A stretch of 64,000 bases of DNA from Candidatus Baltobacteraceae bacterium (GTDB taxonomy: Bacteria; Vulcanimicrobiota; Vulcanimicrobiia; Vulcanimicrobiales; Vulcanimicrobiaceae). Location of the stretch: contig DASXGW010000012.1 of assembly GCA_036488875.1 (NCBI GenBank), positions 62,001 to 126,000 on the forward strand, given 5' to 3'. How positions within the stretch are numbered: position 1 is the first letter of the stretch; each line of letters opens with the position of its first letter. Of this stretch, positions 51,734-56,762 are shown in pieces. The position numbers and the translations under genes were made by a program. Under the pieces are notes generated by a model that ran no database searches, was not told the origin of the DNA, and was given only the letters and a program-made list of their open reading frames with translations.

Positions 51734-53008
51734 CTAGTACTCGTTCTCGAAGTTGATCACGGGTAAATCGGGCGGCGTGTGATACGGAGCGCCGACTTCC
51801 AGCCAAATCGCCGTGTGTGAGTAGAGCGCGATGGCGTTGGGATCGCCGAAGTACTCGGAGTAGCTGCTGGAGTACACGTACTGACTACCGTATTTTGCCT
51901 GGCCGATAAAGACGCGAACGGGCCCCTGGAACGGCCCCACGCCGTTGCTATTGACCGTCATGCCCCACACGTCCATGACGTTCTGCAACGTGAACATCGA
52001 TGAGCTTTTCGGGGCGGTGCTGGGCGATTCGATATGGATCTTGCCCGACGCATCGTGCGTGTGGATGTAATAGAAACACTTCGCCGTGTTCGTAAAGCCG
52101 TTCGAAATCGGTCCCGGCTGGTACAGACCAATTTGATCGGGAATCGCGACCTGGTTGCCGTTGACGTAGAGGCCGAGGTAGACGTGGACGTGGTACTCGT
52201 TCACGGTCATGGTCGGCGAACACGGAATACCGTCAACGGTCTGGCTCTGTCCGCCGCTTGCCGTGTTGCCGTCGGGCGGTGTGAAGAGATTATCCTCCCC
52301 CACGACCTCGCCGTCATACAGCGAGATCCCCCTGGGCGGCTTCGGCGTCGCGGTGGGCTTGGGCGTGGGCGTAGGAGCCGGCGTGGGAGTCGGCTTAGGC
52401 GTAGGGGTCGGTTTCGGCGTCGCGGTCGGGGCAGACGTACCGGTTGGTGCGACGCTCGGCGACGGAGACGGCGACGCCGCATTCAGCGCGACGCGGGTCG
52501 CGACGATGCCGCGCGCCGCGGAGCCAAAACCGACCACGGTAACGTCTTGACCGACCGGTAGCGACGGCGGCGTTTTCGTCGACGACGCGAGGACGACGAT
52601 CGTTGCCGACGAGCTGCCCGTCCGATCGAGTGAAAACCCCAGCTCGCTCGATGCCGCCACGCTCCCGGTCACGGTAAGCAGCGATGGAGCGGAGCGCCAC
52701 ACCGCAACGTAGCGCGCGCGGTCGGGTCGCTCGCCGTGGCCGACGACTTGCGCGAATTCGCCCTTATGCAAGCGGCCGCGCACGACCGTGTGCGAGGAGA
52801 GATTCACCGGAATGCGCCCGTCGTGCGTTCGAAGCACGAATCGATCGGATCCGACGTCCTCGACGATCCCGCGCAGCGAAACGACGGCCGCGGCGGTGCG
52901 CTCCGCGGCGGCACGCTCGGTCCCCGCGACTTGGGGTTGCCGCTCTGCCGGTAAGAGCTGGGTGCACGCGGCGAGTGCGCAGAGAGCGAATGGGGCGAGG
53001 CGCGGCAT
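51734..53008 (-). CDS. lipoprotein with Thr/Pro linker and His-rich C-terminal domain
   Basis: 424 residues. The lipobox-like LAAC lies in a short signal. Residues about 35-175 hold two OB-like segments resembling DUF5666 (VVSLRGIVEDVGSDRFVLRT, SLLTVTGSVAASSELGFSL). A TPKPTPTPKPTP-type linker spans about 185-225. The C-terminal domain has NEYHVHVYLGLYVNGNQVAIP and CFYYIHTHDASGKIHIESP, a His-rich pattern I have seen in exported proteins of unknown function; metal binding is plausible. It is divergent from selD, with a possible TATAGT -10 near its start. Confidence 0.75.
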   Translation of the reverse strand: MPRLAPFALCALAACTQLLPAERQPQVAGTERAAAERTAAAVVSLRGIVEDVGSDRFVLRTHDGRIPVNLSSHTVVRGRLHKGEFAQVVGHGERPDRARYVAVWRSAPSLLTVTGSVAASSELGFSLDRTGSSSATIVVLASSTKTPPSLPVGQDVTVVGFGSAARGIVATRVALNAASPSPSPSVAPTGTSAPTATPKPTPTPKPTPTPAPTPTPKPTATPKPPRGISLYDGEVVGEDNLFTPPDGNTASGGQSQTVDGIPCSPTMTVNEYHVHVYLGLYVNGNQVAIPDQIGLYQPGPISNGFTNTAKCFYYIHTHDASGKIHIESPSTAPKSSSMFTLQNVMDVWGMTVNSNGVGPFQGPVRVFIGQAKYGSQYVYSSSYSEYFGDPNAIALYSHTAIWLEVGAPYHTPPDLPVINFENEY

Positions 53009-53074: not shown

Positions 53075-54091
53075 GTGAACGAAGCCGGCGCGGTGCGGTT
53101 AACGCACCTTACGTCTTGCGTGGGTTGAGCACCTAACCTCGACGCTCGCGTCCTCGCGCAGGTTCTGCGCGAACTGCCCGTCGCGGATGAGAACGTTTTC
53201 GAGCTCGATGCCGAGCGAGCGCTCGTCAGCGCAGTAGATTTTTCCACGCCCGTCGTCGACGATCCCTACGATTTCGGCCGCATCGCCGCGTCGAACGCTC
53301 TCAATCGCATCTACGCTATGGGCGCCACAGCGCTGTGCGCGGTTGCAATCGCCGCGTTTCCCGAAGATCTCGATGCAAACGTCGTCGCGTCGGTGCTGCG
53401 CGGCGGCGTTGAGAAATGCGCTGAGGCCGGGATCGCGGTCGTGGGCGGACACACGATCAAAGACGCCGTGCCGAAATACGGCCTTTCCGTTACCGGGATT
53501 GTTGCACCGCAAACGATCCTACGCGCCTGCGGCGGCCGGCCCGGTGACGTGCTCGTTCTAACCAAAGCGCTCGGCACGGGAATTCTCACCACTGCGCGGC
53601 ACGACGATGCGATCGCGCAAGACGAGCTCGAACCGGCGATCGAATCGATGCTGGAGCTCGACGCCGCCGCAAGCGAAGCGGCGTTGCGTCACGGCGTACG
53701 TGCGATGACGCCCGTCGGCGTTTACGGTTTGCTAGCGCACGTTCGCGAAATGCTCGGTGAAGAGTTGGGCGCGTGCGTCGATGCGGGTACGGTTCCGCTA
53801 TTTTCGCGAGCGCTGGCTTTGGCCGCGCACGATGCGATTCCCAGCGGCACGCGCGCCAATCTGCGCGACGCGCGCGCGGCCGGAGCGCGCTTTGCGACCG
53901 GGCTTCCGTTGGGACTCGCGGCGGTGTTGTGCGACATGCAAACGTCGGGCGGGCTCTTGATGGCGGTGCCGCCCGATCGTGCCGCCGCGCTTTTGGCGGA
54001 TCTCCGCGCGGGCGCCGCGGCTTCGCGCGCGATTGGAACGCTGACGCAGCAGCGTGGAATCGAAGTCGTCTGGAGACCGGCCAAGCAATAA
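53075..54091 (+). CDS. selD: selenide, water dikinase with an in-frame UGA (putative selenocysteine)
   Basis: 338 residues if TGA 53126-53128 is read as selenocysteine (residue 18). The frame begins at GTG 53075 (MNEAGAVRLTHLTSCVG, then U, then APNLDARVLAQVLRELP). The SelD family has LT..T.C.G-C/U-AAK..P..L at this spot. Downstream are VDFSTPVVDDPYDFGRIAASN, GGHTIKDAVPKYGLSVTG, PGDVLVLTKALGTGI and DMQTSGGLLMAVP. SelD makes selenophosphate from selenide and ATP. A SECIS-like hairpin follows the UGA. Odd points: the catalytic Lys three residues after the Cys/Sec is Asn, and GGHTIKD has Lys where Asp is usual. A nonsense mutation in a drifting copy is the alternative. Confidence 0.72.
53154..53172 (+). 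promoter_or_regulatory. SECIS-like hairpin downstream of the selD UGA
   Basis: TCGCGCAG (53154-53161) pairs perfectly with CTGCGCGA (53165-53172) around GTT. The tip GCAGGTTCTGC closely resembles the E. coli fdhF SECIS tip GCAGGTCTGC. The loop starts 33 bases after the UGA, within the spacing accepted for bacterial SECIS elements. GC-rich coding DNA forms hairpins often, so this is supportive, not proof. Confidence 0.55.
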
Positions 54092-54113: not shown

Positions 54114-55052
54114 ATGCTGCACGAAGCTTACTCGGATATCCGCGAAACGCTCGCAGACTTCGGACGCCACAACGGGCAGTGGGCGGCTGCGGCGATGGCC
54201 TACTTTACACTTTTTGCCGTTGCGCCGCTCTTCATCATCGTGGTCGAGATCGCGGGCGCGGTTCTGGGCCGGCATCAGCAAGTGCTCGACGCGCTCTACG
54301 GTTATCTCGCGCGCTCGGCTCGCCCGGAAGCGGCCAACGATATACGTTCGATCGTCCAAGCGACGTTCGCACGCCAGCACTCCGGACCGTTCGCACAGAT
54401 CGTCGGTTGGGTGCTGTTCGTGTTAGGCGCGGTCGGTTTGTTCAGCGCGTTCCAGCACGCGCTCAATACCATCTGGGAAGTTCCGCTTAAGAAGAACGGT
54501 TTGGCCGCCGCCATTGCGAGCCGAGCGGTTTCCTTCGGCATCGTGGTGGTCGTGGCGCTGCTGCTCTTGCTATCGCTGCTGGTGAACTCATTTCTCGGGG
54601 GCGCCGAACAGGCGCTCGCGCAGATCGCGCCGTTTCTTCCGGCCGTTGCCAAGTTGGGGGATTACGTTCTTTCCATCGCGGTCATCGCAGCGCTGTTTGC
54701 CGTGATGTACGAGTACCTGCCCGACGTCAAGATCGAATGGCGTCACGTGTGGCCCGGTGCGGTCGTGTCGGCCGTGCTCTTCGTCGTCGGTCAGGCATTG
54801 TTATCGTGGTATCTCGGTTATACCGGCATGGCCTCGACGTTCGGCGTGCTCGGCGGCATCGTCGCGTTTTTGATCTGGGCGAACTACTCCGCGCAGATCG
54901 TGCTGCTCGGCGCCGAGTTCACGCACGTGTACGCCCGCCGGCACGGCGCCATTAGGCCGGCGCCGGCTTCCGCTGGTGTATCGCGAATCGGTTCCCTTCC
55001 GGGTCGCTCGCAAAGCACACAAAGCACACCGGAGTATCGTGCACCTCGCTAA
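54114..55052 (+). CDS. YihY/UPF0761-family inner-membrane protein
   Basis: 312 residues from ATG 54114. It has six membrane helices and the family marks QWAAAAMAYFTLFAVAPLFII, LFSAFQHALNTIWEVP, YEYLPDVKIEWRHVWPGA, and YTGMASTFGVLGGIVAFLIWANYSAQIVLLGAEFTHVYA. The protein was once called ribonuclease BN by mistake; its role is not settled. The last 35 residues are low-complexity and lie over the convergent VOC gene (101-base overlap). It starts 23 bases after selD. Confidence 0.87.
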   Translation: MLHEAYSDIRETLADFGRHNGQWAAAAMAYFTLFAVAPLFIIVVEIAGAVLGRHQQVLDALYGYLARSARPEAANDIRSIVQATFARQHSGPFAQIVGWVLFVLGAVGLFSAFQHALNTIWEVPLKKNGLAAAIASRAVSFGIVVVVALLLLLSLLVNSFLGGAEQALAQIAPFLPAVAKLGDYVLSIAVIAALFAVMYEYLPDVKIEWRHVWPGAVVSAVLFVVGQALLSWYLGYTGMASTFGVLGGIVAFLIWANYSAQIVLLGAEFTHVYARRHGAIRPAPASAGVSRIGSLPGRSQSTQSTPEYRAPR

Positions 55053-55311
55053 CCTCCACGCCGCTTTCACGCAGACGTTCGCGCATCGCCGGTACGTCGT
55101 CGACTTCGAACGCGGCTCCGGTGGACGCACCCGGTGCGTACCCCAGCGGCTCGCCGTTGCCCACGCCGAACGTCGCGTTGCCGACGTCGAACTCGCTCCA
55201 GTGCTCGCTGAACATCTTGCTGGGCTTTAACCCAAGCACGTCCCGATAAAACGCTTGGGCGCGCGGTACGTCGCGCACCGAGTACGCGAAAAATGCGATC
55301 TCTTTCACCAT
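54952..55311 (-). CDS. VOC-family (glyoxalase/bleomycin-resistance-like) protein
   Basis: 119 residues from ATG 55311. The VOC fold is clear: IAFFAYSVRDVPRAQAFYRDVLGLKP, then SEFDVGNATFGVGN, AAFEVDDVPAMRERLRESGVEV, and CFVCFASDPEGNRFAIHQR. Family members are metal-dependent lyases, dioxygenases or drug-binding proteins; the substrate is not predictable. It overlaps the preceding exported protein gene by seven bases and is convergent with the YihY-like gene over 101 bases. Confidence 0.87.
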   Translation of the reverse strand: MVKEIAFFAYSVRDVPRAQAFYRDVLGLKPSKMFSEHWSEFDVGNATFGVGNGEPLGYAPGASTGAAFEVDDVPAMRERLRESGVEVSEVHDTPVCFVCFASDPEGNRFAIHQRKPAPA

Positions 55312-56762
55312 GGGTATCGTCCCAAAGCCTCCCACTGATCGTTACGAGTGTCGTTCCAGGCGAAAAAGCATTCTCCGAGCGCGCCGATCTTTCTGCTTAC
55401 TTCGAGCGACGCGAGAATTTCCGTTGGTCCGGGAGGGCCGGCCGGACCGGCGGCCGTCTGCCCTCCCATGCTGATCGGAACGTCGCTGCCGGCTTCCCGA
55501 CGCACCGTTGAAAACGACTCTCGAAGAATCGCGCGCACCTGCGCGGGCGTGGCCTTACCCTTGACCATTGCCCAATACGCCATCGGCTGCAGCACCGAGC
55601 TCGCGCGCGCGATCTGGGCGTACGGATACGATGCTTCGTCGAGATGCTCTAAATACGGATCTTCGACGTTCGTGACGATGAGATACCGCGGGCCAAGCGC
55701 TTGGCGAACGAGCGCGACGTATTGCCACAGCGCCGCAAGGCCCTCGGGCGCGTCGCCCATGAAATCGTCGCCGCGTTCGACGTCGATCGCCAGCCCCCGA
55801 ACCGGCGTGCCGTTGGACGTTCGGTAGTACGCCGCGCGCACCGACGCCGCCACGTCCTCGAACGAGCGGTCGCGCGGCACCGTCCAAGCAATCGTGCCGA
55901 TGCCGTGCGCGGCAAGACCGTCGACGATCGCGTCGACGGTGGGTTTGGCTTGTGGGGCGACTTCCCAGTAGGCTCCGTACGTGAAGCGCAGTTCGACGTA
56001 ATGCAATCCGGCGCGCACCGCCTGCGCGACGATGGCGTTCGGATCGAGATGAGCGTAGTAGATGTCGTCGACCGGGTTGTCGGTAAAGAACAGCCACATC
56101 CCTTTGCCGTAGACGTTTGCGATCGACGTGCGCGGCGGGCCGGCCGGCGTCTCGACCTCCACTACGACGGGGCGCCGGTCGCGCCGGTACACCGCATAGC
56201 GGTACGCCCTCCCTTCGGCGACGGTCGTATCGAGGAATGCCGAACTGGGTTCGGAGACGATCGTGCGAGTGCGTCGTCCGCGCGCGTCGAAGCGATCGAC
56301 GCGCACCGCGTATCGCTCGCGAGGAAACCACCCGATCGAAACGGCTCGCGGACCGAGCGCTTCGCCAACGACGCGCGGCTGCGGCCACCGCCGCGTGTCG
56401 GTGCGCACCGTCAGCGTCCCCAGCTTCGGCTGGTTTGCGTGCACGCGCATGCGCAGCGGTCCGTCGCGGTTAGTGATGAGAATCGCTGCCGGCTGGCCGA
56501 AACGCATGCGCGTTTGCCACTGAACGCGCCCGTCGCGCGACGTCCAGCTGAAATCGCTGTTGGCGAGGATCAGCGTTGGATTGCCCTGCCAGTCGAAGAA
56601 CTTCGTAAGCACCAGCCAGCGCGCGTTTCCGTCGGGATCGAAGCCGAGCGGCTGCGTCGCAAGCGTCATGCGCGCCGGCGGCGCCCCGAGCAGCCCGGCC
56701 GGAACCGGCGTCGTGCGCGGCGCCGGTGCAAAGAACGGCGCGAGAAAGAAGCCGGCGAGCAC
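55305..56762 (-). CDS. exported TIM-barrel-like protein of unknown function
   Basis: 485 residues from a GTG start with an N-terminal hydrophobic segment (MLAGFFLAPFFAPAP). Residues about 30-210 are beta-rich, with fibronectin-like stretches (PRAVSIGWFPRERYAVRVDRF, LDTTVAEGRAYRYAVYRRD). The C-terminal 280 residues look like a glycoside-hydrolase-type barrel: GMWLFFTDN, AGLHYVELRFTYGAYW, GIGTIAWTVP, VRGLAIDVERGDDF, YLIVTNVEDPYLEHL, QPMAYWAM. Acidic residues at strand ends could be catalytic, but I cannot assign a family. It lies in an operon with the small membrane protein and the VOC gene. Confidence 0.65.
   Translation of the reverse strand: MLAGFFLAPFFAPAPRTTPVPAGLLGAPPARMTLATQPLGFDPDGNARWLVLTKFFDWQGNPTLILANSDFSWTSRDGRVQWQTRMRFGQPAAILITNRDGPLRMRVHANQPKLGTLTVRTDTRRWPQPRVVGEALGPRAVSIGWFPRERYAVRVDRFDARGRRTRTIVSEPSSAFLDTTVAEGRAYRYAVYRRDRRPVVVEVETPAGPPRTSIANVYGKGMWLFFTDNPVDDIYYAHLDPNAIVAQAVRAGLHYVELRFTYGAYWEVAPQAKPTVDAIVDGLAAHGIGTIAWTVPRDRSFEDVAASVRAAYYRTSNGTPVRGLAIDVERGDDFMGDAPEGLAALWQYVALVRQALGPRYLIVTNVEDPYLEHLDEASYPYAQIARASSVLQPMAYWAMVKGKATPAQVRAILRESFSTVRREAGSDVPISMGGQTAAGPAGPPGPTEILASLEVSRKIGALGECFFAWNDTRNDQWEALGRYPW

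Follow-up and report, generated by a model that had tools for sequence, protein, structure and literature searches.

Here we report that the selD gene in the analysed stretch of a Candidatus Baltobacteraceae genome (64,000 nucleotides, hereafter the window) is probably a redundant and catalytically dead duplicate that is decaying, with its selenocysteine (Sec) codon and the hairpin behind it still present. An intact Sec-type selD lies elsewhere in the same genome, within a selenoneine cluster. The features on which this reading is based are collected in Table 1.

Table 1. Features of the window copy of selD, its neighbours and related loci of the same genome (G000, the assembly containing the window). 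Positions are those of the window unless a genome locus is named; E. coli residue numbers are counted on the E. coli SelD sequence.
Feature	Position	Strand	Details
Degenerate selD paralogue	53075..54091	+	GTG to TAA, 338 codons, the UGA counted as Sec
In-frame TGA	53126..53128	+	Sec codon 18, equivalent of E. coli Cys17; from sequence and alignment
Codon 21, AAC	53135..53137	+	Asn replacing catalytic Lys (E. coli K20); from alignment
SECIS-like hairpin	53154..53172	+	8-bp stem UCGCGCAG/CUGCGCGA; loop GUU at 53162-53164
Site of 13-residue deletion	53177..53191	+	39 nt, in frame; loop immediately preceding the E. coli D51 equivalent; from alignment
Codons 77-78	53303..53308	+	Asn-Arg replacing Ser-Asp (E. 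coli S90-D91, metal ligand); from alignment
Altered D227 motif	53705..53740	+	MTPVGVYGLLAH replacing MTDVTGFGLIGH; residue 213 Pro, not Asp; from alignment
Upstream divergent gene	51734..53008	-	Weak DUF5666 match below its cut-off; syntenic neighbour, also in sister species
Downstream glyoxalase-family gene	54952..55335	-	Syntenic neighbour, also in sister species
Formate dehydrogenase-type UGA genes L167, L168	G000:C4:75437-77341, G000:C1:66248-66985
senB-senA-arsP-selD cluster (L053:4240-8622)	G000:C12:157239-161621		SelD there also a selenoprotein

The first-pass annotation of the window had described a GTG-initiated frame with a TGA at the position where SelD proteins carry the reactive Cys or Sec, 320 open codons after it and SelD homology on both sides, all of which holds on the sequence. 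The GTG aligns with the starts of the SelDs of relatives, and the read-through protein matches the NCBIfam SelD model TIGR00476 with 265.3 bits (cut-off 125 bits) over residues 8-302, spanning both sides of the UGA, with the Pfam domains AIRS and AIRS_C matched downstream of it. The same annotation had singled out two oddities, of which one stood: the Lys20-to-Asn change is real, while the motif GGHTIKD is unremarkable, most intact relatives having GGHTIKD or GGHTVKD. It missed the D91 and D227 losses, the deletion of 13 residues and a further selD that lies outside the window.

At the Sec-x-x-Lys motif the window copy reads Sec-Ala-Pro-Asn, and the Asn is exceptional since Lys occupies this position in 45 of 45 relatives and in all 79 of the other SelDs with coverage there. 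Among the metal-binding aspartates (E. coli D51, D68, D91 and D227), D91 has become Arg and D227 Pro, the motif MTDVTGFG reading MTPVGVYG; D68 is kept, and the D51 equivalent is possibly kept with its loop deleted, the position of the 13-residue gap varying by a few codons between alignments. Also retained are the Sec, the N87 equivalent and GGHT. Measured against 45 SelDs, 15 of 74 invariant positions are altered in the window copy, compared with 0-2 in any other sequence under leave-one-out, and 80 SelDs from many phyla keep K20, D50, D51, D68, N87, D91, H and D227 wherever these are covered, the lone exception at their catalytic positions being the T229 equivalent, where Thr has been replaced by Ser once. 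With the catalytic Lys, two of these four conserved aspartates and an active-site loop of 13 residues gone, the window copy should not make selenophosphate, and is thus predicted to be inactive as a selenophosphate synthetase.

A whole-genome search found the other TGA-containing SelD at G000:C12:160575-161615, on the same contig and about 45 kb downstream of the window copy, scoring 370-376 bits versus 260-265 for the window protein. It adjoins a SenB match (299.1 bits, cut-off 300, with SenB as the nearest solved structures) and a SenA match (474.8 bits, cut-off 420), with an ArsP-type permease gene between senA and selD, and therefore corresponds to the SenC of selenoneine clusters (PMC9814287, PMC10891094). 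Several relatives have this arrangement, whole or in part, and in these the cluster selD is the only strong one. The window copy has neither senA nor senB beside it, both genes lying at about 157-161 kb of the contig next to the other copy; the likeness to the Variovorax paradoxus type of SenC thus belongs to the intact paralogue, whereas the window copy sits outside the cluster, at a locus of its own that the sister species also has. Selenouridine as an alternative selenium sink was rejected, the search for selU giving no match above cut-off. The earlier remark that the window protein may be divergent was apt: it is a degenerate paralogue of this intact Sec-SelD. That the window gene is instead the cell's functional selenophosphate synthetase, as the title of the first-pass reading implies, agrees with its above-cut-off homology and with the Sec machinery of the genome, but is very improbable given the loss of the catalytic Lys, of the D50 loop and of the residues equivalent to D91 and D227, and given an intact SelD elsewhere in the genome.

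The first-pass annotation had proposed looking in the same genome for selA, selB, selC and other UGA-containing genes, all of which are present in the assembly (3.7 Mb, 97.6% complete). The tRNA-Sec gene (selC) scores 78.1 bits against a cut-off of 47, with ARAGORN in agreement (anticodon TCA); selB scores 309 bits including a neighbouring match (cut-off 242) and selA 508 bits (cut-off 268). Two formate dehydrogenase-type genes have an in-frame TGA at a position that corresponds to the known Sec site (CNRT-U-HAPSV in one, NQARI-U-HSSTV in the other), and a hairpin is predicted behind each TGA. An extra short Fdh-alpha match with one TGA, at G000:C4:72773-72976, is possibly a further UGA gene or a fragment. 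In 46 aligned SelDs, taken from relatives and from the window genome itself, the Sec/Cys codon is TGA in 40 and TGC (Cys) in six; leaving out the window copy, the counts are 39 and six, and the TGA set includes the sister orthologue.

The TGA of the window copy is followed by a SECIS-like hairpin, CGCGCAG-GUU-CUGCGCG, at a UGA-to-loop distance of 33 nt. Published bSECIS constraints ask for a loop of 3-9 nt, a stem of 4-16 bp, a G within the first two loop positions and a spacing of 16-37 nt (PMC13188914), and the GUU loop, 8-bp stem and 33-nt spacing of the window hairpin fall within them. As a single sequence its folding z-score is weak (-1.75). Across the aligned SelDs, 34 of the 40 Sec genes form a hairpin of 6 bp or more in a common register, whereas none of the six Cys genes does, and the stem covaries through synonymous changes, CAG pairing with CTG in 26 genes and CAA with TTG in nine, with one CAA/CTG exception (Fisher p 1e-7, the relatedness of the genes being ignored). 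Pair counting over 20 sequences gave 95.7% paired cells, and the covariation score lies above all 500 shuffles and every slid register. The six Sec-type genes lacking a hairpin of at least 6 bp in the common register are L029, L035, L036, L039, L043 and L048; in L043 a hairpin with a 5-nt loop is possible by eye.

Because the genome has selA, selB, tRNA-Sec and other UGA genes, and because the covarying hairpin is absent from Cys-SelDs, the window UGA is a Sec codon by descent, on which point the first-pass assignment of a likely selenocysteine is upheld. Were the window copy transcribed, it would by this sequence evidence be read through as a dead selenoprotein. The annotation had also entertained a nonsense mutation. 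A TGA arising by ordinary mutation or sequencing error in a Cys-type selD would suit a gene that is otherwise degenerate, but can hardly be credited here: the UGA is common to the sister orthologue and 38 further SelDs, the hairpin behind it covaries, and tRNA-Sec, selA and selB are at hand. That SelDs throughout the phylum share this UGA refutes the nonsense mutation as such.

Alignment with sister genomes, likewise proposed earlier, places the duplication in context. In the sister species (G001) the only detected selD occupies the window's locus, with flanking genes conserved on both sides; it carries the same UGA and encodes a canonical, Sec-containing and intact orthologue of the window copy. 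In this assembly, which is 90% complete, senA was not found, and the best matches to the oxidoreductase flanking the sen copy have merely 32% identity. The tree groups the window copy with the G001 protein (100/97) and places the sen-cluster copy as sister to both (94/87), the window branch being 2.3-fold longer than that of G001 (0.55 versus 0.24). The simplest reading would be that a cluster-type selD was duplicated in this lineage and that the copies were then lost reciprocally, G001 keeping the stand-alone gene and the window genome coming to use the cluster copy. Only one other genome of the order was found with two selDs (G112; L176 and L177), one of Cys and one of Sec type, the catalytic residues being intact in both. 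Within the order, no SelD match reached E <= 1e-30 in 24 of 103 genomes, some of them more than 90% complete, which suggests a scattered loss of selenium use. Judged by some of the nearest named SelD matches, such as L087, L134 and L085, the organism probably belongs to Eremiobacterota (WPS-2).

We infer the following course for the window copy. After selD was duplicated, the copy in the selenoneine cluster would have supplied selenophosphate for both selenocysteine and selenoneine, rendering the window copy dispensable. With constraint gone, the window copy would then have lost its catalytic Lys, the two metal-binding aspartates and the active-site loop. Its decay would be incomplete, a stop or frameshift having yet to arise and the Sec UGA and SECIS hairpin being intact.

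The constraint on the window copy is altered. In codon models, omega on the window branch is 0.22, compared with 0.10 for the background branches (2dlnL 5.9 relative to a single shared omega), and lies below 1 (2dlnL 14.9 against a fixed value of 1); these values are rough because synonymous change is near saturation, and the window branch pools a constrained period with a later one, so that its omega covers both. The window branch changed 18% of phylum-invariant sites, 15% of those with two states and 16% of those with three to four states, compared with 0 of 59 invariant sites on the G001 branch. Such similar rates at invariant and moderately variable sites suggest a general relaxation, as expected for lost constraint. 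The changed invariant sites are not clustered along the sequence (p 0.72), and functional divergence through local, clustered change of the active site was rejected on this ground.

Several observations count against decay and would be consistent with a retained pseudoenzyme, a bacterial analogue of SPS1 that makes no selenophosphate and is kept as, for example, a heterodimer partner, a regulator or a Sec-using selenium-binding protein. The 338-codon frame is intact and both indels are in frame; the UGA and hairpin stem are unchanged; the Sec, D68, N87-equivalent and GGHT positions are retained; omega over the whole branch is below 1; and function-altered SelD duplicates are known from animals (PMC4561486). 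Neutral mutation simulated to about 16-19% amino-acid change, however, left the frame free of stops in about 17-36% of runs. Selection is thus not needed to explain the open frame, which is weak evidence against neutral decay; we rejected the absence of stops as proof of selection. Against retention also stand the alteration of phylum-invariant sites as fast as moderately variable ones, their lack of clustering, and the fact that no comparable altered SelD copy was found in a second species among the relatives searched, including 103 genomes of the order, so that long-term retention cannot be shown. We therefore regard a retained pseudoenzyme as unlikely, though a serious alternative. The specific form in which the protein kept its Sec, gave up ATP- and metal-dependent catalysis and now partners the selenoneine-cluster SelD in a selenium-binding or regulatory role appears somewhat less likely again.

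The window copy differs from each of the systems it most resembles. It shares with Sec-containing bacterial SelDs (TIGR00476) near-full-length homology, the Sec position, a SECIS-like hairpin, D68, the N87 equivalent and GGHT, but is without the Lys20, D91 and D227 equivalents and 13 residues at the D50/D51 loop. The window copy and metazoan SPS1/SEPHS1 (PMC4561486) are both SelD duplicates that exist beside a working Sec-SelD of the same genome; SPS1, however, lost its Sec, whereas in the window copy the Sec codon remains and other catalytic residues are gone. The crenarchaeal SelD-like family is likewise a divergent SelD homologue, but retains its catalytic residues according to its authors (PMC4210487), which the window copy does not. 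In a literature search at title and abstract level, with incomplete coverage, we found no description of a SelD that retains its Sec codon and SECIS element alongside catalytic losses.

Selenocysteine-containing SelDs are well known, which makes the window UGA in itself ordinary, and both duplications of SelD and selenoneine clusters are known as well. Less usual is a catalytically broken SelD that retains its Sec codon and hairpin while all selenium use of the genome appears to be served by the selenoneine-cluster SelD; the sister species, by contrast, keeps the stand-alone selD and has no detected senA. Annotation could mistake the window copy for a functional gene, or overlook both copies, and a Sec UGA with a SECIS element is alone no proof of a working selenoprotein. 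Based on these observations, we suggest duplication and reciprocal loss as a route by which selD may relocate between pathways.
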